From positions 1-22,257 of the IMG/VR virus record IMGVR_UViG_3300024344_000141: a stretch of 22,257 bases of DNA. One strand, written 5' to 3'. The translations under genes were made by a program, and so were the position numbers. Within the stretch, counting starts at the first letter, position 1, and each line of letters begins with the position of its first letter. This document shows, piece after piece, positions 1,799 to 14,741 of this stretch. The DNA comes from a virus. The notes under the pieces were generated by a model. The model made no database searches. It was not told the DNA's origin and saw nothing but the letters and a program-made list of their open reading frames with translations.

Positions 1799-2290
1799 AT
1801 GGCAGACTTCATTCAACCAGATGAACTATTTCCAACAGCGTATGAACCAAAACATAAAGCTAGGTTTATTATGTATATTGAGGGGATTCCATCTTTTGTT
1901 ATTAAGGTATCATCAAGACCTAAATTAACCTTTGCGGAACTGACGATTGACCATATAAATACAAAGAGATATGCACAAGGTAAAGCGAGTTGGGATGCTA
2001 TCTCAATTGAATTGATGGACCCGATAGTACCATCATCAGCACAAGCTGTAATGGAATGGTGTAGGCTTAGTTATGAGTCTATAACAGGAGCTCAAGGTTA
2101 CCATGAGAATTATGTTAAAGATGTTACTATTAAATTATTAGGACCAGCCGGAGATATTGTAGAACAATGGACTGGTAAAAACACATTTATAACTGAAGCT
2201 GACTTTGGTGCGTTAGATTGGTCAAGTGATGCTGACATGATGGGTGTAACTGTTGGGTTACGAGCTGATTATTGGGTATTAGAGTTTTAA
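1799..2290 (+). CDS. 19: Tail tube protein, gp19-like
   Basis: 163-aa tail tube subunit, the rigid inner tube through which DNA passes, sitting directly after the sheath gene as in T4. The sequence has the gp19-like pattern: an early HKARFIMYIEGIPSFVIK strand region, an IDHINTKRYAQGKASWD segment, and a central AVMEWCRLSYESITGAQGY motif typical of T4-like tube proteins. The length matches the family (about 160 residues). The start is supported by the ribosome-binding site AGGAGA (1787-1792), with the ATG seven bases on. It is monocistronic: promoter motif at 1727 and a strong terminator at 2323. This suits a highly expressed structural protein needed in many copies. Confidence 0.93.
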   Translation: MADFIQPDELFPTAYEPKHKARFIMYIEGIPSFVIKVSSRPKLTFAELTIDHINTKRYAQGKASWDAISIELMDPIVPSSAQAVMEWCRLSYESITGAQGYHENYVKDVTIKLLGPAGDIVEQWTGKNTFITEADFGALDWSSDADMMGVTVGLRADYWVLEF

Positions 2291-2404: not shown

Positions 2405-3205
2405 ATGACAAAACCAGCACAACCACTAAGTAAAGAATTAGAATTTCCTACTGAACTTGTTACTTTACCGAGTACAGGGTACTTTTATCCGAGCGATAAT
2501 TCACTCGCAAGTGGTAAAGTTAGAATTAAATATATGACAGCTCGTGAGGAGGATATTCTTACAAGTAAAAATCTTATCAATAAAGGTATCGTACTTGATG
2601 AATTATTAAAAGCTTTAATAATTGATAATGGTGATGGTCAACCAATTAATATGGATGACTTGTTACTTGGTGATAAAAATGCAATATTAATTTCAGCTCG
2701 TATATTAGGTTATGGGCCTGAGTATGAATTTGAGATTAACGACCCGACTACTGGTGAAAAAACCAAAGATTCTGTTGATTTGAACCAATTATCTACCAAC
2801 GAAGTTAATTTTTCTGAATACACTAAGGGTAGCAACGAGTTTATATTTGAATTACCAGTTTCCAAAAAAACACTTGGATTTAAAATACTGACTCATAAAG
2901 ACGAGAAAGAAATTGATATAGAATTGAAAAAAATGAAAAAGTTCACTAAGGCTACTGGTATTGAGCACGATATAACAACTCGTATGAAACGCGCTATAAT
3001 ATCTATTGATGGTGATTCGGAAAAAAATTCTATAAATAAGTTTGTAGATACTCAGTTTTTGGCTCAAGATTCGAGAGCATTCAGAACACATTTAAAAAAT
3101 ATTGCACCTGATGTAGATTTATCATATAATTACACAAGTCCAGATGGGACAGAGACGGAGGTACAGGTTCCTATGACCGTCAGCTTTTTTTGGCCTTCCT
3201 CCTGA
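2405..3205 (+). CDS. T4_baseplate-family protein (gp26/gp51-like), candidate tail assembly chaperone
   Basis: 266-aa protein of the T4 baseplate family that includes gp26 and the hub-assembly protein gp51. Recognisable blocks in order are VTLPSTGYFYP (about 19-29), the VRIKYMTAREEDILTS block (39-54), the DDLLLGDKNAILISARILGYG block (84-104), a DLNQL strand, a PVSKKTLGFKILTHKDEKEI block and the C-terminal VPMTVSFFWP. These are hallmark segments of the T4-like marine homologues, which usually end in a similar FFWP motif. The start has AGGAG (2395-2399) five bases before ATG. It sits between the tube and tape-measure genes, exactly where λ- and Mu-like phages encode tail assembly chaperones. Its last codons contain a U7 run overlapping an out-of-frame conserved extension (see 3185 and 3189). 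Family membership is solid; whether it acts as hub component or chaperone is inferred. Confidence 0.88.
   Translation: MTKPAQPLSKELEFPTELVTLPSTGYFYPSDNSLASGKVRIKYMTAREEDILTSKNLINKGIVLDELLKALIIDNGDGQPINMDDLLLGDKNAILISARILGYGPEYEFEINDPTTGEKTKDSVDLNQLSTNEVNFSEYTKGSNEFIFELPVSKKTLGFKILTHKDEKEIDIELKKMKKFTKATGIEHDITTRMKRAIISIDGDSEKNSINKFVDTQFLAQDSRAFRTHLKNIAPDVDLSYNYTSPDGTETEVQVPMTVSFFWPSS
3185..3191 (+). other. Putative ribosomal slippery site (U7)
   Basis: Seven T in a row (context GCTTTTTTTGGCC), read in the gp26-like frame as TTT TTT TGG, four codons before the TGA at 3203. Slipping +1 or -2 on this run leaves Phe-tRNA paired with UUU and moves translation into the frame encoding the conserved 3189-3410 extension. 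A -1 slip enters an unconserved frame instead. No strong downstream stem is visible. A homopolymer assembly error of one base is the main alternative. Confidence 0.5.
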
Positions 3206-3410
3206 AGTTAAACCTCAACTACACGAGCAAATATTCAGCCTTTGTTATTTCTCAAATGGCGGGTTTACTTTTAATGAAGTATATGGTATGCCTGTAAATT
3301 TAAGACGCTTTTATTTACAACAATTACAGAAAGTAAAGAAAGCAGAGCAAGAAGAAATGAATAAAGCTAACAAAAAACCATCACATAGTCCACCTTCGTT
3401 TAATAGATAA
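3189..3410 (+). CDS. Out-of-frame C-terminal extension of the gp26-like protein (no start codon)
   Basis: 73 codons open in the +1 frame relative to the upstream gene. The frame is open from 3177 (just after a TGA at 3174-3176) to the TAA at 3408. Its content looks like a real protein: a charged start (GLPPEVKPQLHEQIFSL), a CYFSNGGFTFNEVYGMP block, then VNLRRFYLQQLQKVKKAE and a basic Pro/Ser tail. Similar small proteins follow gp26-like genes in other T4-like marine phages, by my recollection. There is no ATG, GTG or TTG before the conserved block; the first ATG (codon MPVNLRRF) would cut the domain in half. Expression is therefore most simply explained by ribosomal frameshifting at 3185-3191, giving a roughly 335-aa fusion. 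The alternatives are a non-standard start or an assembly indel in the T run. Confidence 0.65.
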   Translation, partial: FGLPPEVKPQLHEQIFSLCYFSNGGFTFNEVYGMPVNLRRFYLQQLQKVKKAEQEEMNKANKKPSHSPPSFNR

Positions 3411-3428
3411 CTATAAATTTCAATTTTA

Positions 3429-3447
3429 TTATATTTATATATGAGTT
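3429..3447 (+). promoter_or_regulatory. Late-type promoter motif, copy 3 (76-aa gene/tape measure)
   Basis: TTATATTTATATATGAGTT, identical over 19 bases to the motif before the tail tube gene. It ends 30 bases before the ATG of the 76-aa gene and so probably drives that gene and the long tail operon behind it. Confidence 0.65.
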
Positions 3448-3477
3448 ATCCTATTCACAAATTTTCGGAGGTATATA

Positions 3478-3708
3478 ATGACTAAAAAGAATCTTATACG
3501 GGAAAGTTTAATGACTAAGTTTGTAAGTGGTATTATGGGTAATATCATTAACAGACAACGACAGAAGAACATAAAAGCATTAGAGAATGACCCTAAGCTA
3601 AAAGCGATGGAAGCGGAATTAGCTAAATCCATTGAAAAATTTAAGAAAAGTGTAGAATCCTACACCGGAGGAAGTTCTGCAGCTTTTAGAAAGAAATACG
3701 GATTGTAA
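3478..3708 (+). CDS. Small unknown protein of the tail operon
   Basis: 76-aa basic protein, not recognised. It starts with the strong ribosome-binding site GGAGG (3467-3471), with the ATG six bases on. The sequence is predicted mostly helical: residues 5-35 are basic and partly amphipathic (FVSGIMGNIINRQRQKNIKA), residues 36-62 are an acidic/basic helix (ALENDPKLKAMEAELAKSIE), and the end (SSAAFRKKYGL) looks like a short capping tail. No signal peptide or membrane segment is seen. It is the first gene after promoter copy 3 and lies 12 bases before the tape measure, the slot often used by small tail-assembly or tape-measure partner proteins. That role is only positional inference. It is a real gene on coding style, ribosome-binding site and spacing. 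Confidence 0.75.
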   Translation: MTKKNLIRESLMTKFVSGIMGNIINRQRQKNIKALENDPKLKAMEAELAKSIEKFKKSVESYTGGSSAAFRKKYGL

Positions 3709-3720
3709 TAGAGAATAAAA

Positions 3721-6702
3721 ATGCCAAAACCAAGAGACGCCTCGGGACAATTTATATCTAATGACAAAGCTGATGAAATCATTGAAGCTGAAAAACGAAT
3801 AGCTGAAGCTAAACAGAATGCACAGCAGCAAACATTCGATAAAGCTAATAAACTTGTAGATGACTATTATGCTAAGGTGGAAGCAGGTGAAAAAATAACT
3901 GATGAGCTTAAGCAACAATATTTTGACGCTATAAAAGACATTGATAAATTCCAGAAGAAATCACAAAAGGAAATAGAAGAAAAGGCGGAAGAGTATGCTG
4001 AATATAGAGTATCACAGGTAAAACAATTAGGTGTACACGAAACGGAATTATCAAGTATTGCAATTGGAGCTATTGAAGCAGCACAGTTCGCTTATAAAAA
4101 AGGTAATGATGATATGGCTAAAGGTTTTGACAAAATAACCGAACTTACTCTTGAACAAGCAGCCGCGTCAAAGCAAATTGGTTCGGAAGATTATACTAAT
4201 TTAACATATAAAACTGAAATAGCAGCTACAGATAAGGAAATTTACACAATAGAGTCAGATATTCTTAAAGCTAAAGCAGCTGGTAGAAGTGACGATATGC
4301 AGGATTTAATATCAAAAAAACAAGCTTTACAACTACAAAAAGACGGATTGGAAAAGTTAGAAGAATCAGCTGAAATAATGAACTACAAACACGATGCCAT
4401 CACTAAAGGTCTACAACCACTTAAAGATATGGAAAAAAAGTTTAATGATATATTACATACTGTTGGTGCTATAGTTTCAAATCCAATGGTATTATTAGTT
4501 ACATTAATAACAGCTGCCGCAGCACACTTCGCAGCGACGGAAAAAGCAGCAGAAGATTTTCGCCAAGGGCTTGGGTTGACTGTTAGTGAGAGTAAAGCAT
4601 TAGAAGAATCAGCTATGAATGTTACTAAAAACATGGCAGCGGTTGGACAAACTTATACGGAATCTTTAAGTGCGGCGTCAGCATTAGTAACTACGATGGG
4701 TAGTTTAAGTGCAGCTACTGCAGAAAATATTGAAATGGTTTCTAAAATGAGTAAAGTTCTTGGAGTGACTGCTGATGAATCTGCAAAGTTCCTTGAAAAT
4801 ATGTCAGCGACTGCTGGAATAACAGTTAAAGAAGCTGGTCACTTAGCGGTAGTTAGTACTGAACTGGCTAAAGCAGCGGGTGTAGCTCCTGGACAAGTAA
4901 TAAAAGATATGACTACTAATTCAGAATCATTCGCAAACTATATAAAAGATGGTGGTGAGAATTTAGCAGAAGCAGCTGTATTTGCGGCTAAGATGGGTGT
5001 AAATATAGCGTCAATGGTAAAGATGGCTGACAGTTTATTAAACATAGAACAATCATTAAATGATGAAATGGAAGCAGAAGCATTGTTAGGTAGAGACATC
5101 AATTTAGAAAAAGCTAGACAATTAGCTTTTGATGGTAAAATTGCAGAAATGGGAGCTGAAATAACTAAACAAGTTGGAACGGCAGCTGAGTGGGAATCAA
5201 TGAGAGGTCACGAGAGAGCAGCTTTAGCTAAAGCTATGGGAATGGAAGTTAGTGAGATGGGTAAGATGATTAAAAACCAAGAACTTATAGCAGACTTAGA
5301 AGCTGGAAGATTGAGTACACAAGAAGCTATAGCACAAGGATTATCATTCGATGAAGTGATGAAAGTTAATGATGTTTTAGGCCCTATTACAGAGATGAAA
5401 AATTCAATTTCAGCTATAGCTATGAATTTATTAGAAGTGTTTAAACCCGTGTTTTCAGCGATAGCACTCATAATTGAGGGTATAGCTTTTACTCTTGCTC
5501 TCATAGCTAAATGGTTAAATACTGATATTGGTAAAGGATTAACTGCTGGTGTTGTAGCTTTAACACTATGGAGGTCAAATACTCTTGGAATGGTAAAAAA
5601 CTTAACTGTTGGTGGATTAAAAGCAATTAAGAATTTCGTTACTTGGTTAATAACAGGACAAAAAGCTCAAGAAGCTACAACAAAAAGTGCAAAAGGAATG
5701 TTTAGTGTGATGAAAGATGGTATGAAATCAATTACCGGAAAAGGAAAAAGTATGTTAGGACTTGGTAAGGCAAAAGTATCAGACTCAGTAAAAACAACTG
5801 AAAGTCCAACTGAAAGTCCAACTGGAGGAATGTTTAAGAACTTCGATGCTAAAAAAGCTTTAAAAGGAGCAGCTGCGTTATTAGTGGTATCGACCGCGTT
5901 ATTCGTGTTTGCTAAGGCACTTCAAGAAATGCCACTCGATGTTGGACCATATATAGCAGCCGCAGCTGGATTAGGAATTATGGGAGCAGCATTATTTGGA
6001 ATATCAAAGTTGTCTGGTGATTTAATAGTAGGAGCTGCAGCTATGGTAATTATGGGAGCTTCATTAATCCCATTCGCGTTTGGGTTACAAATGTTGTCTG
6101 ATGTAGATTATGGACAAATAGCGTTAGTCGGAGTTACTCTGATAGCATTTACGGCCGCAGTATTTGGTTTGGGGGTTCTTATGATGACTGGTGTAGGAGC
6201 TCTTATATTCGGCGCTGGGGTAGCTGGTTTTATAGCACTTGGTGGAGCTCTTATAGTTCTCGGAGTTGGTGTCACGGCTATAGGTGGTGGTATGATGTTA
6301 TTGACTATGGGACTTCAAGGTTTAGGTGAGCATATAATACCATTAGCTACCAATGTCAGTAATATCGTATTACTTGCAGGGGCGTTTGCACTCTTCGGAA
6401 TAAGTTTAGTTTCGTTAGCAGCTGGACTAGCACTAATTGCACCAATGTTACCAGTGATATTAGCTTTAGGAGCAATTGGTGGGTTAGCTATGGGAGTTAT
6501 GAGTTTCACTACAAGTAACGAACATTCAGAAGGAGAAACATCATCGTCAACATCATCAACATCACCGAGTGAGGGAGAAAATTTAGGAGCTAAATTAGAT
6601 AGATTAATATCATTAGTAGAACAGGGTGGTGTTATTAATATGGATGGTAAAAAAGTGGGTGAAGTGTTGGGTGGTAGTATAATGAGACCGGTAGTCGGAT
6701 AG
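3721..6702 (+). CDS. Tail tape measure protein
   Basis: 993-aa protein, the longest in the window, that would set tail length and reach through the tube lumen. Residues about 12-125 are an Ala/Glu/Lys/Gln-rich coiled-coil region; 130-245 are more helical heptads; 250-271 is a hydrophobic stretch (SNPMVLLVTLITAAAAHF). Residues 280-560 are Ala/Met-rich helices, 561-600 another hydrophobic block, and 713-930 a nearly continuous series of Gly/Ala-rich membrane-like segments. Then comes a Ser/Thr linker (about 932-950) and a short C-terminal helix with an INMDGKKVGEVLGGSI motif seen at the end of many tape measures. T4 gp29 is much shorter (about 590 aa), so this tail may be longer. The start has only a weak Shine-Dalgarno (GAGAA), suggesting moderate translation, as expected for a low-copy protein. 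A 12-bp tandem repeat lies in the linker at 5797-5820. Confidence 0.88.
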   Translation: MPKPRDASGQFISNDKADEIIEAEKRIAEAKQNAQQQTFDKANKLVDDYYAKVEAGEKITDELKQQYFDAIKDIDKFQKKSQKEIEEKAEEYAEYRVSQVKQLGVHETELSSIAIGAIEAAQFAYKKGNDDMAKGFDKITELTLEQAAASKQIGSEDYTNLTYKTEIAATDKEIYTIESDILKAKAAGRSDDMQDLISKKQALQLQKDGLEKLEESAEIMNYKHDAITKGLQPLKDMEKKFNDILHTVGAIVSNPMVLLVTLITAAAAHFAATEKAAEDFRQGLGLTVSESKALEESAMNVTKNMAAVGQTYTESLSAASALVTTMGSLSAATAENIEMVSKMSKVLGVTADESAKFLENMSATAGITVKEAGHLAVVSTELAKAAGVAPGQVIKDMTTNSESFANYIKDGGENLAEAAVFAAKMGVNIASMVKMADSLLNIEQSLNDEMEAEALLGRDINLEKARQLAFDGKIAEMGAEITKQVGTAAEWESMRGHERAALAKAMGMEVSEMGKMIKNQELIADLEAGRLSTQEAIAQGLSFDEVMKVNDVLGPITEMKNSISAIAMNLLEVFKPVFSAIALIIEGIAFTLALIAKWLNTDIGKGLTAGVVALTLWRSNTLGMVKNLTVGGLKAIKNFVTWLITGQKAQEATTKSAKGMFSVMKDGMKSITGKGKSMLGLGKAKVSDSVKTTESPTESPTGGMFKNFDAKKALKGAAALLVVSTALFVFAKALQEMPLDVGPYIAAAAGLGIMGAALFGISKLSGDLIVGAAAMVIMGASLIPFAFGLQMLSDVDYGQIALVGVTLIAFTAAVFGLGVLMMTGVGALIFGAGVAGFIALGGALIVLGVGVTAIGGGMMLLTMGLQGLGEHIIPLATNVSNIVLLAGAFALFGISLVSLAAGLALIAPMLPVILALGAIGGLAMGVMSFTTSNEHSEGETSSSTSSTSPSEGENLGAKLDRLISLVEQGGVINMDGKKVGEVLGGSIMRPVVG
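5797..5820 (+). repeat. Two perfect 12-bp tandem copies inside the tape measure
   Basis: ACTGAAAGTCCA occurs twice in succession, encoding TESPTESP in a flexible linker just before the hydrophobic C-terminal region. The repeat is in frame and probably tolerated as linker length variation. Confidence 0.85.
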
Positions 6703-6711
6703 GAGATATAG

Positions 6712-8745
6712 ATGGCATTAGTAACACAAGACGCGATACCAACCACAGGATTATCAGCGAAAAAACCAACACCAAAAAAAAATAACAGTAAAATTCAACA
6801 GAAGTTGACAAGTCCACCATCGATGGGTGGTGATGATTTCAAAAATAATGATAATCGTATAGCATGGCATTCAACCAAACACTCACATCCATTGAACAAT
6901 GGACTTGGAGATATACAATTTGGTAAGGGTATTCCCAATAAAACAGAATTAACGAACTGGACAATTGGTACTACTACTATTGACTACACACCAATATCAA
7001 GTAGATATAATTCGTCAAAGATACAGTCAAATTTAGGTGATTCTGTATATGAAATAATTTCAGCTGAAGCTCAACGGCGAGCTAGTGGACCAAGAACAGC
7101 AGCATATTTTTCTGAACCACATATAATTAAACGACCGCACGAAGCACCTGCTCAAGAAGGAAAGGTTGCAACTGCAGTGAATTTAGTTAAAGGGATGGCT
7201 GACTTTATGGGTCTTAAACTTTCATTGAAAGATGCATATGCTTACGGTCGACATACATTAAGCCCTCGAGGTTTATTATTCTTAGCTAATGAGACGGCTC
7301 TAACTAAAAGAATATTGGGTGCAGCATACGAAGGTCCTAAAACATTCAGAGAAACATTGGGTAGTTATAGTCCATCAGCTATCATTACCAAATTGAAAAC
7401 TGGAAACACATTTAATCCATTAGGTATATACGCGTCGAGAGTACTCGGTGGTGTAGGGGCTAGAGGTATAAGAAATTACAGAAATAAAGGTGAAGGTCTT
7501 ACAGGGATGTTAGCACCTACCGTAGTGTTATATAGTGATGATTTACAGACTGGTGAGGACGATATTGAAAAAGCTTATCAGACTAATATAGGGTTACATG
7601 AGCACTACGCGGATATTACACCCCACATTCGTAAAAAAAGTTTTACTAATACAGAACGACCATATGTAGATGAACCATTTATGGAACAGAATGGACCTAT
7701 GTCCTGGCTTGGTATTGTAACTAATAGAAATGATTTGAGTAAATGGTGGACTAAGAGAATAAGACAATCACAGCGAAATGTAATAGATGCGGTATCAACT
7801 GACGAAGATGTTTCAGTAAATGCTGACGGTGTCGAACCCGTAGGTTCAGATTTTACTGACCATAAAATAATGCAAGATATAACTCCGTCACACGAATCAA
7901 TGGAAACTCCATTTACTATGAAAGCTAATGAAGATGGTGAAACATTACATACCCGCGGTGGTGAGGAATTAGTAGATAAATACAGAGCTCATTTATATGG
8001 AGGTATTGTAGCAGCAAGAAATGACAGAAGTAAATGGACATCACAGCGAACAATAGAAGTTGATGGCCAACCTAAAAAGGTAGAAATACAAACATCATAT
8101 GGAGTATCTGGTCGACCGAACCCCGGTGGGAAATATGAAGGTGATAAAATTAATTTATTAGAAATTCAACAATTAAACGATGATGGTACTGAACCAGTAA
8201 CAGGTGTCCACGATTTAATACCATTTAAAATTAAAATATTAAATACAAACCAGATGATTATATTAAGGGCTTATATTGATGACATATCTGACACTATAAC
8301 TCCAGACTGGTCTGAGATTAATTATGTAGGGAGACCAGACCCTGTCCATGTATATAAAGGGGCCAAACGACAATTTTCTTTAAAATTTAAATTAATACCT
8401 AATTCAAAAGCAGAACATAAAATTCTTTGGGAAAAGGCTAATACTTTAGTTGGTTTAAATTACCCTACATATGCTAGTTTAGGTAATACTGAAACGAATG
8501 CAAGCTTAGGTAATAGAATGGTAGCTCCATTTATAAAATTAACAGTAGGTGATATAATTCATGACCAAGCTGGTTATTTTAGTGGAATTAATGTCAGTTC
8601 GATAGATAACTCTCCGTGGGAACTTACACCGGGACAACGATTACCTATGTATATAGAAGTATCGGCTACATTTGTGTTTATAGGTAATCACTTACCAGAT
8701 TTAGGTAACCCTAAATTTTATAATATAGATAACTTACAACAGTAG
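6712..8745 (+). CDS. Baseplate / tail-tube-cap protein, gp48/gp54-like
   Basis: 677-aa structural protein. The C-terminal part (about 501-670) is the recognisable one: a DLIPFKIKIL strand, AYIDDISDTITPDWSEINYV, GRPDPVHVYKGAKRQFSLKF, a WEKANTLVGLNYP block and a final IGNHLPDLGNPKFYNID tail. This layout recurs in T4-like and far-T4 baseplate proteins of the tube-initiator group. The N-terminal 30 residues are Pro/Lys/Gln-rich and disordered; 150-260 include a helical block with LSPRGLLFLANETALTKR. Residues 334-349 and 431-446 are a short internal repeat (GIV..RND.SKW). AGGAGAT precedes the ATG. The gene lies directly after the tape measure and before the gp53-like gene, consistent with a protein that caps the baseplate and starts tube growth. 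The exact T4 equivalent is uncertain. Confidence 0.7.
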   Translation: MALVTQDAIPTTGLSAKKPTPKKNNSKIQQKLTSPPSMGGDDFKNNDNRIAWHSTKHSHPLNNGLGDIQFGKGIPNKTELTNWTIGTTTIDYTPISSRYNSSKIQSNLGDSVYEIISAEAQRRASGPRTAAYFSEPHIIKRPHEAPAQEGKVATAVNLVKGMADFMGLKLSLKDAYAYGRHTLSPRGLLFLANETALTKRILGAAYEGPKTFRETLGSYSPSAIITKLKTGNTFNPLGIYASRVLGGVGARGIRNYRNKGEGLTGMLAPTVVLYSDDLQTGEDDIEKAYQTNIGLHEHYADITPHIRKKSFTNTERPYVDEPFMEQNGPMSWLGIVTNRNDLSKWWTKRIRQSQRNVIDAVSTDEDVSVNADGVEPVGSDFTDHKIMQDITPSHESMETPFTMKANEDGETLHTRGGEELVDKYRAHLYGGIVAARNDRSKWTSQRTIEVDGQPKKVEIQTSYGVSGRPNPGGKYEGDKINLLEIQQLNDDGTEPVTGVHDLIPFKIKILNTNQMIILRAYIDDISDTITPDWSEINYVGRPDPVHVYKGAKRQFSLKFKLIPNSKAEHKILWEKANTLVGLNYPTYASLGNTETNASLGNRMVAPFIKLTVGDIIHDQAGYFSGINVSSIDNSPWELTPGQRLPMYIEVSATFVFIGNHLPDLGNPKFYNIDNLQQ

Positions 8746-9068: not shown

Positions 9069-11591
9069 ATGACAGGAAAAAATTTAAGCTCATCGTTTCT
9101 ATCTTTTATCCATGAAAATGTACAAAAGACACTTTTCGGTAAAATGTCTGATTCGCCACAGGAAGGACATATAAGAGATTCTATTAAATCTACATCCACG
9201 AGAGCTGTCTGGATAAAAATGACTTCTGGTGGGTTACCCATTGACGAAGCTAAATCAAAAACCCCTGTAATTTTGATGGGTGGTGAGTTGACTAACAATG
9301 GAACATTACCAGCTGGTTTTAGTGATTTATATGAACCTAAGATAGAAGGATATGACGAAGATTATGGTGAAACATATAAACCACTCCCTGGAATAACAGG
9401 TATTTCGTGTAAAACTGAAGGTACTTATGGTTCATTAAAAAGTGCTACAATAAATTGGCAATGTTGGTCACTTAGTCAATTAGAACGATTAGATGGTCAT
9501 TTTATGCGAATAGGGGGGTCGGTGATGTTAGAATGGGGTTGGAGTTTAGCCCCGGGTGAAATTATATCATTCGCTCCCACCGAGTTTAGAAAAGCAAGTA
9601 CTGAGGGTAAAAAAAGAGTATTAGACAATGGTGGTAATTATGATGTTGTATGTGGAGTTATAAAGAATTTTTCCTGGTCATCTAACGATGCTGGAGGGTT
9701 TGATTGTTCAACTGAATTAATATCACAGGGTACTCCTATGATAACTTCTGGTGTCGGTAATGACGGAAGTGATATGAGTGACGCCGCAGATGAAACTGAA
9801 ATGAGCGAAGAAGCCAAGCAAGAATTGAAAAAATTGGGTATGTCTAATTTTAAAAAATATGTTACTAATATGAAACTTGAATTACTTAGACACTTAAACC
9901 CTGGTACGGTAATTGATACTTGGGGATTTGATGATGGACCTACAACATCAGATGCTGACATCTATACAGGTAAAAACATTGAATATCGTGATACAAATAT
10001 CCAATTTGGTACTTTGGCATTTATAAGTTGGGGTTATTTTGAAGATAATGTATTAAGTAAATATTTAGGCAGAGTTTCCGGTGACGGGCAAATAAAATAT
10101 ACAGTTAGGAGTATTGATGTTATAGATAATAGTGGTACTGGCGGTGATACACCATATAGTTATGAGTCGGTACAATGCTCAAATCATCCAGCATTAAGAA
10201 CAGCTGATTCAAGAATTTGTCAATTTCCAGGAACCGGTGAATTGGACTACGGAGATTTTGAAATATTTAGAGGAGATGATGGGGGAAGACCCAAACTCCC
10301 CGAAGACCGAGGTTATCTGAGAAATATAAAATTGAATGTTCAATTTATAATGGATTGTTTTGACGATGTAAACACCTTGCCCGAAGGTATGGAAAAACTA
10401 TTTGAAGGTATCAATAGTGTAAGTGGAGATATATTTAATTTCAGTTTACAACAGGATAGTGCTGTTGAAACTAATATGCGGGTAGTTGATATGAATGTTG
10501 TTGACAATTCAGTACAAAATTTATTAGACCCTAATATGCGAAGTACATCATCAGACCCAACTAAGGTATTTTATTTCCCAACCTGGCGTTCCGATAACAC
10601 CATAGTTATAAATCAATCATTGACAGCTAAAATACCTTCAACCGCTATGTTAACAGCTATGTATGGTTCTAATAAAGTTGATGTGCAGATGGATAAAAAC
10701 CCACCTAAACCTGAAGATGGAGATATTGAGTCTTTAACAGCAGTCCAACGACAGGAAGTAGTAGATAAATTCCTCAGTGGATTTACTTTACCAGATGCGT
10801 TATATAGAACAACCACAAGTTACTATGGAAACGCTTCAGGTGAGTTACCACCACCTGGCAAGTTAGCTGTAGATATAAACAGTAATATGGGATGGAGTGG
10901 AGGCCCGCCGAGTGTCGCTGAAATTAAATTGAGTGGAATAGAAAAAATAATATCTAACAAGGGGAAAGAAGCTGCTCTGTCGGCAGATGCAAAAGCAATA
11001 GCAAAAGCCAATGAAGAAGACCCGCCCGAAGAACAGAGTATGTGGTCGACCATGTGGGAAGGTGTGAAAAGTGCATCCGGTGCCATAGCTGATAGTGTAG
11101 CTGATGTAGTTACTGTTATAGATAATGGGTTTTCTCATGTGACGAGAGCTGTACACGCGGCTTTTACTGAATACCAATTAGGCGAAATACTACCAGCTTA
11201 TCAGATAGAAGTTATGAAAAAGAAAATACAATTTGGTGAATCAAATGAAAACGGTGAAATTGAAAATCCTGAAGAAGGAAAAGTTTATAAAACTGATTTT
11301 ATTTTACCATTAGAATTATCAATGAAAATAGATGGAATCGCTGGAATATATCCCGGTAATGTATTCAGTACTGATTATTTACCCAACGCTTATAGACCAC
11401 GCAACAGTCTGCACCACGATAATTTTAGAAGTGGAGTAGTATTTATGGTAAAGGGAGTGTCACATGACATAAGTGCTACTGGGTGGACAACTGAGTTCGA
11501 TGGTATAATGAGAGCTTCTATACCACCACCTATAAATAAATCCGCTCAAGAAGTTAGTCCTATAGCTAACCCAACTCAAGGTGCTTTATAA
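9069..11591 (+). CDS. Large baseplate hub candidate, gp27-like
   Basis: 840-aa structural protein. Residues about 105-165 hold the most characteristic block: ITGISCKTEGTYGSLKSATI followed by a W-L-QLERLDGHFMR segment and a VMLEWGWSL motif. This 'G..KSATI..W....L..L...F..PG..V.LEWGWS' pattern marks hub proteins of many far-T4 and marine myoviruses. The C-terminal part (about 745-825) has LPLELSMKIDGIAGIYPGNV and FMVKGVSHDISATGWTTEFD, the domain expected at the hub/spike junction. The middle (about 240-730) is Asp/Ser/Gly-rich and less conserved. No lysozyme motif was recognised, so the tail enzyme or spike must be elsewhere. The start (GAGGTAAC before ATG) follows the gp53-like stop by 2 bases. 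The role is inferred from motifs and gene order. Confidence 0.68.
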   Translation: MTGKNLSSSFLSFIHENVQKTLFGKMSDSPQEGHIRDSIKSTSTRAVWIKMTSGGLPIDEAKSKTPVILMGGELTNNGTLPAGFSDLYEPKIEGYDEDYGETYKPLPGITGISCKTEGTYGSLKSATINWQCWSLSQLERLDGHFMRIGGSVMLEWGWSLAPGEIISFAPTEFRKASTEGKKRVLDNGGNYDVVCGVIKNFSWSSNDAGGFDCSTELISQGTPMITSGVGNDGSDMSDAADETEMSEEAKQELKKLGMSNFKKYVTNMKLELLRHLNPGTVIDTWGFDDGPTTSDADIYTGKNIEYRDTNIQFGTLAFISWGYFEDNVLSKYLGRVSGDGQIKYTVRSIDVIDNSGTGGDTPYSYESVQCSNHPALRTADSRICQFPGTGELDYGDFEIFRGDDGGRPKLPEDRGYLRNIKLNVQFIMDCFDDVNTLPEGMEKLFEGINSVSGDIFNFSLQQDSAVETNMRVVDMNVVDNSVQNLLDPNMRSTSSDPTKVFYFPTWRSDNTIVINQSLTAKIPSTAMLTAMYGSNKVDVQMDKNPPKPEDGDIESLTAVQRQEVVDKFLSGFTLPDALYRTTTSYYGNASGELPPPGKLAVDINSNMGWSGGPPSVAEIKLSGIEKIISNKGKEAALSADAKAIAKANEEDPPEEQSMWSTMWEGVKSASGAIADSVADVVTVIDNGFSHVTRAVHAAFTEYQLGEILPAYQIEVMKKKIQFGESNENGEIENPEEGKVYKTDFILPLELSMKIDGIAGIYPGNVFSTDYLPNAYRPRNSLHHDNFRSGVVFMVKGVSHDISATGWTTEFDGIMRASIPPPINKSAQEVSPIANPTQGAL

Positions 11592-12052: not shown

Positions 12053-13384
12053 ATGAAAGTTATAGAAAAACAACACCAGTTCGATGCATTTATTCGGAAT
12101 AATAAAAACTCAAAGTGTTACATTGTTCCTATATTCACCGACATATACAAGCATCCGTTAAACAACGCATTGTCGTTGTTATATGTACATTGTGATACAG
12201 ATTTTTTGATATGCTTTGACCATAGTGAAACTCAGAGTATATCAACTAAAAACCTGGCTTCATTGAATGAGATGACTATTTACACCCATAATAAGAATGA
12301 ATTGAACCATATTTATCATTGGGATAATGTAATTGATGTAGGTATGTTATATTATTTAAATACAAATAACCCACTTAGTTTTGATGATATAAACACATCA
12401 GCTCATACTTATTTTAAACAAAAGTACCACCGAGTAAACAATGTTAATAAATTGATACCAGTGAATAAGCACCTTGAATATTGTATAGAAATAAAAGATA
12501 AAATGAAAAGGGTATTGACAGTATGTGATAGCACTGGTACTTTTCTGAAATATAATGATGTAGTAATTGATAATTTAAGTTTTATAGAATCGTCTGGATT
12601 AAAAGTTAATAGAGATAAATTACCATTTAAATATCAAAGACATATCTCAAAAGATAACTTTGTATTTACACGCTATAATCCATATACATTGACAGGACGA
12701 CCAGCTAACAAATACGGTGGGTTAAATTTTTCAGCTATGAACCGAAGTGATGGTAGTAGAGAACCCTTCGTTAGTCGATTTGAAGATAGTGGACTTTTAA
12801 TTGAAATGGACTATGATGCATATCATCTAAGATTAATAGCAGATATTGTAAACTATGATTTCCCTGATGGGTCAGTGCACGAATATTTAGGAAACCAATA
12901 TGGTGTAGATTATGAAGAAAGTAAAAAATTAAGTTTTAAGTATTTATATGGTGGAATTCCCAAAGATATAGCGACAACTATACCATTTTTTGGGTTGGTT
13001 ACTGAATATGTTAATAGTAACTGGATAAAGTATAATAAGAGGTTTTCTGTCAAATCTTATATTTATAATAGGAAAATAGGAAAAAATAATTTACAGGATA
13101 TGAATCCTAATAAGTTGTTCAATTATTTAATACAATTGAATGAGACAGAATATAATATGGAGGTCATTTCTAAACTACAGAAAGTGTTGAAGGGTTATGA
13201 AACTAAATTAGTATTGTACCAATACGATTCATTCCTTTTTGATTTTTGTATGAGAGATGGTAAGGAGTTTTTATTGAAGATTAAAAACACGATTGAAGGA
13301 AGTGCTAAGTTCCCAGTTAAAATATCGAGAGGGATAAATTATAACGATATGGTAAATATAACGGAGAAGTTGAATGTTAATTGA
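12053..13384 (+). CDS. Compact divergent family A DNA polymerase-like protein
   Basis: 443-aa protein with family A (Pol I/T7-type) polymerase motifs in the correct order. The pre-palm T/R block is NPYTLTGRPANKYGGLNFSA (209-228). Motif A is EMDYDAYHLRLI (251-262), aligning Asp253 with the metal-binding Asp of Pol I. Motif B/O-helix is KKLSFKYLYGG (291-301), with Lys, Phe and Tyr at the Klenow spacing 758-762-766. A FNYLIQLNETEYN segment carries the conserved Gln, and motif C is LVLYQYDSFLFDF (385-397) with Asp392. Residues 1-110 may be a degenerate exonuclease remnant; no intact exonuclease triad is evident, so proofreading is probably absent. It is shorter than Klenow (about 600 aa). The start follows AAGG closely; the 3' end overlaps the next ORF by 11 bases. 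T4-like phages normally replicate with a family B polymerase (gp43), so this is either an accessory or a replacement enzyme. Confidence 0.75.
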   Translation: MKVIEKQHQFDAFIRNNKNSKCYIVPIFTDIYKHPLNNALSLLYVHCDTDFLICFDHSETQSISTKNLASLNEMTIYTHNKNELNHIYHWDNVIDVGMLYYLNTNNPLSFDDINTSAHTYFKQKYHRVNNVNKLIPVNKHLEYCIEIKDKMKRVLTVCDSTGTFLKYNDVVIDNLSFIESSGLKVNRDKLPFKYQRHISKDNFVFTRYNPYTLTGRPANKYGGLNFSAMNRSDGSREPFVSRFEDSGLLIEMDYDAYHLRLIADIVNYDFPDGSVHEYLGNQYGVDYEESKKLSFKYLYGGIPKDIATTIPFFGLVTEYVNSNWIKYNKRFSVKSYIYNRKIGKNNLQDMNPNKLFNYLIQLNETEYNMEVISKLQKVLKGYETKLVLYQYDSFLFDFCMRDGKEFLLKIKNTIEGSAKFPVKISRGINYNDMVNITEKLNVN

Positions 13385-14741
13385 TTATGATGAAATAGTA
13401 AGAGAATGGGCTTATCGAGTTCCTAATGGGAAACCAGATTTAACTAATGCCCACCATAAGGATAAATTAGTAGAAGTTATGAAAGAATTAAATTATCCAT
13501 TGGAATTGTTATATGATTTACCTAAAAAACAATTAATTTTAGAAGGTGATACCTCAGCTACTACATTTTATCATGAATTTATAACTGGTGCTATTGTTGG
13601 TGGTTGGAGCCCTGGTACAATCACAACAGGTGCTGATTTGATACCCGCATTAAAATATTGTCAAGCAACTACTAATGGTACAAGTCTTGTAGGTGATGAT
13701 ATAAATAATAGTGTTTATACTAATAAAAGTGGAAAATCCTTTTTTGACAAGTCGATGAAACCCAAGTCAAAAATAGTTGCTGACGCTAAAAGTACTGCTA
13801 TGTATATAATATATAATTTAGGTAAATGTACGGGAAAATGTATGTGGACAGGTCCAACTAATGACAGTTCAGACTATGGAGCAGCTGATATAGCTGGAGA
13901 TTTTGGTAGTAAATATGGAAAAGTTGGGATTTCATTAAAATATGGAGTTGGGCAACTCAAAAATTTAACTATAGGTACATTTATAAAGACTTTAGGGTTG
14001 GGTACAATGACTGGTGATTCTTTTGTAAAGAATTATACGGGTTCATTTGACTATATGACTAAAGATTGGATAACACTTGTAACAAAATTATTTAATTCTA
14101 AAATTTATGGAGAAAATAAACAAAAAGCTAAAAATATATTTAAAAAACATTCTAAAACAACTTGGAGTGCTTATCAATCGGAAAAAATAACTGCAGATGA
14201 ATATGATATATTAATTGATGCTCTCGGGTGGCCTGTACAGAAAAAGAAAGAATCTAAACATAAAACATTTAAATATTTTTGTCGTAAACTTCAAGAAAAA
14301 TATCATGGTACTAAATGGAGTGATTGGATTACAGTAAGGGTAGAAGGATTTAAAGATATATTTGGTCATTTTTTAAAAGAGAATGAAGATAAAATATATA
14401 GTGGTTTGCACGATTTATTTAAGCGACAATTAAGTATTGGAAAGACAAGTATGTTTTATGCGGCCAATAAAGGTCAAACATTTTGGTTTATACCGAGTGA
14501 AACTTTATATGATAAAACTTTTGATGAAACAGAATTTACAATGGATTATCATATAAATACAAATAAATCAGATTTTGAATTTGTATTACAAGTTGGAACT
14601 GTAAGTGCAGGTGTTGTTGGTGAAATAACAGTTGTTATTAGGTTTGCTAAAGGACAGATGAATGGCGTACCAGACGCAAAATCAAAATATAAATTAGTAG
14701 CTAAAGATTGGTCTGCCATATTGGGGGCATTTAGGAAATAA
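13374..14741 (+). CDS. Unknown protein with a possible PD-(D/E)XK nuclease core
   Basis: 455-aa protein, overlapping the polymerase-like gene by 11 bases, so probably translationally coupled. Residues 1-48 form a small charged domain (IDYDEIVREWAYRVPNGKPD, then a helix ending ELNYPLE) that I associate with N-termini of other marine phage proteins. Residues 60-210 carry a pattern like restriction-type nucleases: FYHEF with Glu68, WTGPTNDSSDYGAADI with Asp172, and VGISLKYG with Lys189, followed by QLKNLTIGTFIKTLG. A distant Glu, then Asp, then S-x-K (Ser replacing the usual Asp/Glu) is a known variant of this fold. The C-terminal half is Lys-rich with many aromatic residues and could bind DNA. 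No methyltransferase partner lies beside it. The nuclease call is a hypothesis; that it is a gene is not in doubt. Confidence 0.8.
   Translation: MLIDYDEIVREWAYRVPNGKPDLTNAHHKDKLVEVMKELNYPLELLYDLPKKQLILEGDTSATTFYHEFITGAIVGGWSPGTITTGADLIPALKYCQATTNGTSLVGDDINNSVYTNKSGKSFFDKSMKPKSKIVADAKSTAMYIIYNLGKCTGKCMWTGPTNDSSDYGAADIAGDFGSKYGKVGISLKYGVGQLKNLTIGTFIKTLGLGTMTGDSFVKNYTGSFDYMTKDWITLVTKLFNSKIYGENKQKAKNIFKKHSKTTWSAYQSEKITADEYDILIDALGWPVQKKKESKHKTFKYFCRKLQEKYHGTKWSDWITVRVEGFKDIFGHFLKENEDKIYSGLHDLFKRQLSIGKTSMFYAANKGQTFWFIPSETLYDKTFDETEFTMDYHINTNKSDFEFVLQVGTVSAGVVGEITVVIRFAKGQMNGVPDAKSKYKLVAKDWSAILGAFRK

Follow-up and report, generated by a model that had tools for sequence, protein, structure and literature searches.

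A putative +1 ribosomal frameshift site conserved in the gp26-like tail assembly chaperone gene of a T4-like phage lineage

The viral DNA analysed here, hereafter called the window, is the 22,257-nucleotide stretch of IMG/VR record IMGVR_UViG_3300024344_000141 (positions 1 to 22,257), and it contains a gp26-like open reading frame (ORF), a candidate tail assembly chaperone (TAC) gene with an out-of-frame extension (Table 1). The ORF matches the Pfam family T4_baseplate (PF12322; E 7e-7, 29.6 bits, curated cut-off 24.5), residues 34-263 aligning to positions 9-219 of the 219 in the profile, and its PHROG match is phrog_150, 'baseplate hub'. The zero frame ends in AGC TTT TTT TGG CCT TCC TCC TGA, with a run of seven T at 3185-3191 and, after the four codons TGG CCT TCC TCC, the stop codon TGA at 3203-3205. 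In the +1 frame, a TGA at 3174-3176 precedes an open stretch that starts at 3177 and runs to the TAA at 3408-3410; the first ATG, GTG or TTG of this stretch in the window is an ATG that already falls within the conserved block FNEVYG-M-PVNLRRFY. A first-pass annotation, made from the sequence alone, had placed the T run four codons before the stop and described the start-less +1 ORF (3177-3410), both correctly, and had proposed a programmed +1/-2 frameshift at this point. It had also seen the tape measure gene following after one small gene, and the gene order is indeed tail sheath, tube, gp26-like ORF, 76-amino-acid ORF and a 993-amino-acid ORF at the tape-measure position. A gene after the tube and just 5' of the tape measure, as is typical of TACs, is found both in the window and in Flavobacterium phage immuto, in which the tape measure is annotated; Pfam and PHROG searches with the 993-amino-acid ORF itself gave no match above noise.

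Table 1 Features of the gp26-like locus and its context in the window
Feature	Position	Strand	Basis
gp26-like short tail assembly chaperone (TAC-N), zero frame, 266 amino acids	2405..3205	+	Pfam PF12322 and phrog_150 matches, predicted fold
Putative slip site TTT TTT TGG (P-site UUU_U, A-site UGG)	3185..3193	+	Conserved register and fixed wobble bases
+1-frame extension (TAC-C domain), 72 amino acids, proposed to be reached via the slip only	3192..3410	+	pN/pS, conserved motif, homology to the -1-frame extension
Upstream hairpin (predicted), proposed +1 stimulator	3155..3181	+	GACGGAGG...CCT...CCGTC; 3' end 3 nt before the T run
Tail tube protein, gp19-like (context)	1799..2290	+	phrog_4542 tail tube E 2e-17; Pfam gp19 sub-threshold
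Probable tape measure protein, 993 amino acids (context)	3721..6702	+	Position; immuto counterpart annotated as tail tape measure protein

Within the window the motif count was unremarkable, TTTTTTTGG occurring 3 times against 0.8 expected, and the run at 3185 is the sole T run of at least seven on the coding strand within any gene; the evidence rests on comparison. All 39 relatives that an initial search gave from IMG/VR have TTTTTTTGG in register, and in each of them the +1 extension is open. Because one of the patterns used had included the junction, the search was redone with junction-free queries, namely an alignment ending before the junction (A3) and the patterns MTA[KR]EED and GDKNA, which matched at least 600 stretches, 80 of which were kept. 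The site was TTTTTTTGG (TTT TTT TGG) in 54 of these 80 loci and one of the variants TTTCTTTGG, TTTTTTTAC and TTCTTTTAC (codon-wise TTT CTT TGG, TTT TTT TAC and TTC TTT TAC) in the other 26. Two phage records included, the locus set comprised 122 loci, 101 of them distinct by their extension, these counts being of related sequences and not of independent events (median identity of the extension 38 % in ungapped comparison). One viral record (L001) was identical to the window over 7,202 nt, with 0 mismatches, and may not be an independent sample. All 101 distinct loci had TT[TC][CT]TTT followed by GG or AC in register, that is, a YUU codon followed by U at the proposed P site and TGG or TAC as the A-site codon, together with an open +1 extension (62-106 codons unless the contig ended first). 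Conservation of the 3185 run among homologues is far beyond chance.

Sixteen further loci came from prokaryote genome bins, on what are probably phage contigs, and 15 of them reached the junction. T7GG was present in 13 of the 15, at identities down to 36 %, the exceptions being L149 (27 % identity), with TTC TTT CGG, and L139. The latter, binned with Winogradskyella (3001-3750), reads TTT TTT TTC (T8C), a third Phe codon replacing Trp or Tyr. Among named phages, immuto has TTTCTTTGG, Microcystis phage Mel-JY01 T7GG, Bacillus phage SP-15 TTT TTT CAC and Streptococcus phage GXN1 TTC TTT CGT, each with the +1 extension open, and the jumbo phage LR756508 has TTT CTA TTC at the site. A search of viral_contigs for relatives of the SP-15 gp26 returned SP-15 alone. 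The first-pass annotation had itself raised a one-base homopolymer error as an explanation, and homopolymers are error-prone; the rival reading is an error of one T in sequencing or assembly, or a decaying gene. The same out-of-frame arrangement is present, however, in 101 distinct loci and in the records of immuto, Mel-JY01 and SP-15, and also in sequences without a homopolymer. Such conservation of site, register and extension, the latter under purifying selection, removes this reading, to which we attach a negligible probability. The comparison of homologous loci thus bore out the T-run register and the extension, the run itself being interrupted in some variants.

Past the zero-frame stop, the ratio of non-synonymous to synonymous change (pN/pS) in the extension frame was 0.27 (253 pairs), while either other frame gave nearly no stop-free pairs (1 and 0), which places the extension under purifying selection. 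It keeps the motif GL-P...IF...GGFT..VY.MP..LRrFY among homologues, so that its earlier description as protein-like and conserved-looking holds. Neither the extension on its own, searched against Pfam and PHROG, nor its model, in fold searches, produced a clear match. The extension might be a separate gene, translated from its own or a non-standard start or by translational coupling and never fused to the chaperone, and some ATG, GTG or TTG precedes the core in the +1 frame in 43 of the 101 loci, the annotated start in Mel-JY01 is a TTG, and a stretch resembling a Shine-Dalgarno (SD) sequence lies 18-36 nt before the site. Against this, the position of candidate starts is not conserved and the remaining 58 loci have none, conservation in the extension frame begins directly after the FF codons (GL.P), and the invariant wobble bases of the slip site would be meaningless; we regard a separate gene as very unlikely. 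The extension is annotated as a separate hypothetical protein from an internal start in immuto (L040, 5854-5964), and from TTG in Mel-JY01 (L041, 5737-5973). As a practical point, current annotations thus miss or mis-start such extensions.

At the slip site the two wobble positions are fixed as T (99 % and 100 %), whereas neighbouring zero-frame wobble positions carry little information; upstream Phe codons are 81 % TTT and 19 % TTC, and only 1 of the 101 loci has TTC as its first site codon. Slippage at the zero-frame stop was rejected, because both the stop (42 TAA, 37 TGA, 22 TAG) and the codon before it vary and extension-frame conservation starts right after FF. A canonical -1 site of the type X_XXY_YYZ, as in the cyanophages described below, was not found, the base preceding the run being T in about 1 % of loci and the -1 frame being closed. 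The extension frame could also be entered by a -2 slip, as known in phage Mu (PMC5009743), which would make the same fusion with one additional Phe (SFFFGLP). In its favour, the tRNA on UUU would re-pair perfectly two bases back on U7, and 100 of 101 loci have TTT as the first site codon. In the members with TTC TTT, namely L127 (TTC TTT TAC), L149 and GXN1, a -2 slip would put Phe-tRNA on UCU, and every variant fits +1; these members make a -2 slip unlikely. The variants TTTCTTTGG and TTCTTTTAC and the distant TTCTTTCG indicate that U7 is not essential and favour a +1 P-site slip on YUU_U or UUU_C. Of the originally proposed +1/-2 slip on U7, the +1 part is thus retained, the -2 alternative is less likely and the need for U7 is given up.

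Seven T are few for slippage by a bacterial polymerase. Transcriptional slippage, by which the mRNA would have one base fewer or two more and be decoded in the standard manner, is suggested by the 7-T homopolymer of most members. It would need an intact homopolymer, which is broken by the CTT members (TTTCTTT in 11 of 101 distinct loci), and L127 and the distant phages also interrupt the run with the extension frame unchanged. Slippage during transcription is accordingly highly improbable, and a programmed translational slip into the +1 frame remains supported by the site, register and extension kept in the 101 loci.

The 45 nt 5' of the site are predicted to fold more stably than synonymous codon shuffles (mean z -1.85; 51 % of loci below -1.5), as compared with z between -0.56 and +0.15 in ten control windows of the gene. 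Dinucleotide shuffles gave a smaller effect, z being -1.14 before the site as against -0.57 to 0.00 for the remaining upstream windows. Positions -9 to -4, the 3' arm, paired with upstream sequence at a probability of about 0.66, and 80 of 101 loci had a helix ending 0-4 nt from the start of the run (36-63 in control windows). A helix in a single register was dropped as a candidate, pairing by register being at or near expectation and RNAalifold giving no consensus structure, and the claim is therefore limited to local structure being favoured upstream. Work on 70S ribosomes showed that +1 slips are stimulated, and -1 slips attenuated, when a hairpin abuts the E site, a downstream pseudoknot having the opposite effect (Huang et al. 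2018, PMC6321510); by prediction, the window lineage has the +1 layout of that study. A weak E-site codon also favours +1 (cited in PMC6321510), in which case the near absence of TTC as first site codon is as expected.

An SD about 3 nt before the P-site codon, as in the release factor 2 (RF2) gene, was not found in the window, where the 9 nt before the run gave 0.7 to 1.5 kcal/mol, and the family mean for anti-SD pairing in these 9 nt was weak (about -2.2 kcal/mol). The strong SD-like stretch is further upstream, at about -24 to -18, inside the 5' arm of the hairpin. RF2-like, SD-driven stimulation was rejected because this stretch is some 20 nt from the site. The SD-like purine stretch, at 3148-3170 in the window and about 18-36 nt before the run in relatives, gave a mean of -6.65 kcal/mol compared with -3.52 kcal/mol in synonymous shuffles, and may be merely the hairpin 5' arm or a pause signal. 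Bins of metagenome-assembled genomes and the missing SD before many starts point to Bacteroidota as the likely hosts of many members. Bacteroidota ribosomes largely ignore SD sequences (PMC8710568), which might, speculatively, explain a hairpin replacing the SD duplex.

A homologous slip in the opposite direction was found in other T4-like phages. In cyanophage DSL-LC02 and in the Chrysonvirus phiAS5 of Aeromonas, gp26 ends with T TTT TTC and the extension is in the -1 frame. Among 80 IMG/VR relatives of the cyanophage gp26, the -1 extension was present in 78 of the 79 loci scored and a +1 extension in 0. In 30 loci of this lineage the downstream 45 nt had z -3.35 (77 % below -1.5) and the upstream 45 nt z +0.33. 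The layout of the -1 lineage, with downstream structure, mirrors that of the +1 lineage, with upstream structure: the slip is at the homologous FF codons and leads into a homologous extension, but the site is T TTT TTC, the direction -1, the downstream structure strong and the upstream hairpin absent. Annotated ORFs also fall in the -1-frame extension, a small ORF after gp26 in a cyanophage (L051, 4744-4866) and, in Pseudomonas phage Cygsa01 (L052, 3809-3982), one annotated as 'baseplate hub assembly catalyst' (gp51), where a TAATG overlap might permit re-initiation instead of a -1 slip.

T4 gp26 and gp51 are of the same family as the window gene (PF12322) and are paralogues (hhalign probability 98.5, E 2e-15), gp51 having an additional C-terminal stretch. 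This stretch is matched by the -1 extension (E 1e-11), to which in turn the +1 extension aligns with E 4e-5; the +1 extension also has a weak match to gp51 itself (p 0.0035; reversed and column-shuffled controls at least 0.08). Homology was argued stepwise because direct profile comparisons were weak, including that of the fused protein with gp26. By these profile matches, the +1 extension is homologous to the -1-frame extension and, through it, to the gp51 C-terminus, and gp51 seems to carry the extension equivalent in frame. T4 would then make both forms from two genes, whereas the window has one gene and a proposed +1 slip. A chaperone role fits the listing of both T4 proteins as hub assembly chaperones and the finding that gp51 is essential but absent from particles (PMC3004832).

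Core and extension were modelled separately. The core model had a predicted local distance difference test (pLDDT) score of 90 and its BFVD matches were gp26 hub proteins; the extension is predicted to be helical. In the PDB, Foldseek ranked the HK97 TAC (2ob9) first, although weakly (E 1.2), and the two top chains by VIA-align 2 were YqbN (3klu, Z 5.2), which we take to belong to the XkdN-like TAC group, and 2ob9 (Z 4.8). At these modest scores the core fold may be called TAC-like.

Taken together, the comparisons make it very probable that this T4-like TAC locus encodes a short gp26-like form and, via a +1 slip, an extended form. Several points weigh against it: the upstream hairpin has neither a single conserved register nor covariation, the matches to TAC folds score modestly (Foldseek E 1.2; Z about 5), the direct profile comparison of the fused protein with gp51 is weak, the A-site codons UGG and UAC are sense codons and not known as slow in the hosts, and the near-invariant third T of the first site codon would also suit -2. 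Standard decoding would give the short chaperone of 266 amino acids. On AGC UUU UUU UGG, with UGG waiting in the A site, the tRNA-Phe on the second UUU would in a fraction of ribosomes slip +1 (UUU_U to UUU), decoding would resume at GGC, and the product would be a fusion of about 334 amino acids (...VSFF-GLPPEVK...) with the 72-amino-acid, predicted helical C-terminal domain. Forward slipping would probably be promoted by the hairpin abutting the E site, and -1 slips would be discouraged by the base preceding the run, which is not T. By analogy with lambda G/GT, many copies of the short form would cover the tape measure protein, and the tube would be started by the less abundant long form bringing in tail-tube subunits. 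That the slip occurs, its direction (+1, not -2) and frequency, the role of the hairpin and a G/GT-like function are what we infer from the comparison.

In the phages SPP1 and Listeria PSA, too, a tail gene or tail chaperone gene undergoes a +1 shift. Other such genes, including that of archaeal HSTV-2 (PMC5009743), share the +1 direction and, going by their description, belong to other families with other shift sites. TACs of the lambda G/GT and HK97 gp13 types have, as here, short and frameshift-extended forms encoded just 5' of the tape measure gene, but they slip -1 at another site (PMC5009743), and the searches made found their sequence families unrelated. The RF2 gene prfB (CUU UGA) likewise combines a P-site YUU_U +1 slip with a duplex adjoining the E site as stimulator; in the window lineage a hairpin would take the place of the SD duplex. 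Different phages use -1, -2 or +1, and the G-T frameshift has been called widely conserved 'except T4' (Atkins et al. 2016, PMC5009743). A T4-like lineage shifting +1 would help to link T4, long listed as the exception (PMC5009743), to that scheme, and as the lineage is large and apparently shifts forward, it suggests that gp26 and gp51 split the two products into two genes.

On balance, we favour the view that the T4 lineage has found three solutions at one homologous shift point, +1 with an upstream hairpin and -1 barred, -1 with downstream structure, and duplication into gp26 and gp51. Nature would then supply a large-scale example of the bidirectional model, in which RNA structure in the wake of the ribosome drives it onwards and structure in its path restrains it, and also of evolution switching frameshift direction. 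The homologous +1 and -1 sites make frameshift direction open to study by signal swapping, and the upstream hairpin becomes testable as a natural +1 stimulator. Vladimirov, Gautam and Davidson (2022, Virology 566:9-15) reportedly identified gp26/gp51 as the TAC genes of T4-like phages. PMC12846349 cites Vladimirov et al. 2022 for poly-T -1 signals in T4-like phages. The TAC identity of gp26/gp51 and the poly-T -1 sites are therefore already known, and the suggestion in the first-pass annotation that the gp26 family supplies the T4-lineage chaperone agrees with both our data and that literature. The conserved +1 site, upstream hairpin and mirror-image layout were not found in the accessible literature, an earlier description, including in Vladimirov et al. 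2022, being possible; the conserved +1 variant, with its signals arranged the other way round, seems to be new.

Between the extension and the tape measure gene, the 76-amino-acid ORF (3478-3708) has its own start, and gave a noise-level PHROG match and none in Pfam. Searches of the Pfam and PHROG libraries tried gave no match for the large ORFs at 6712-8745, 9069-11591, 12053-13384 and 13374-14741, of which the first two are situated in the baseplate region.
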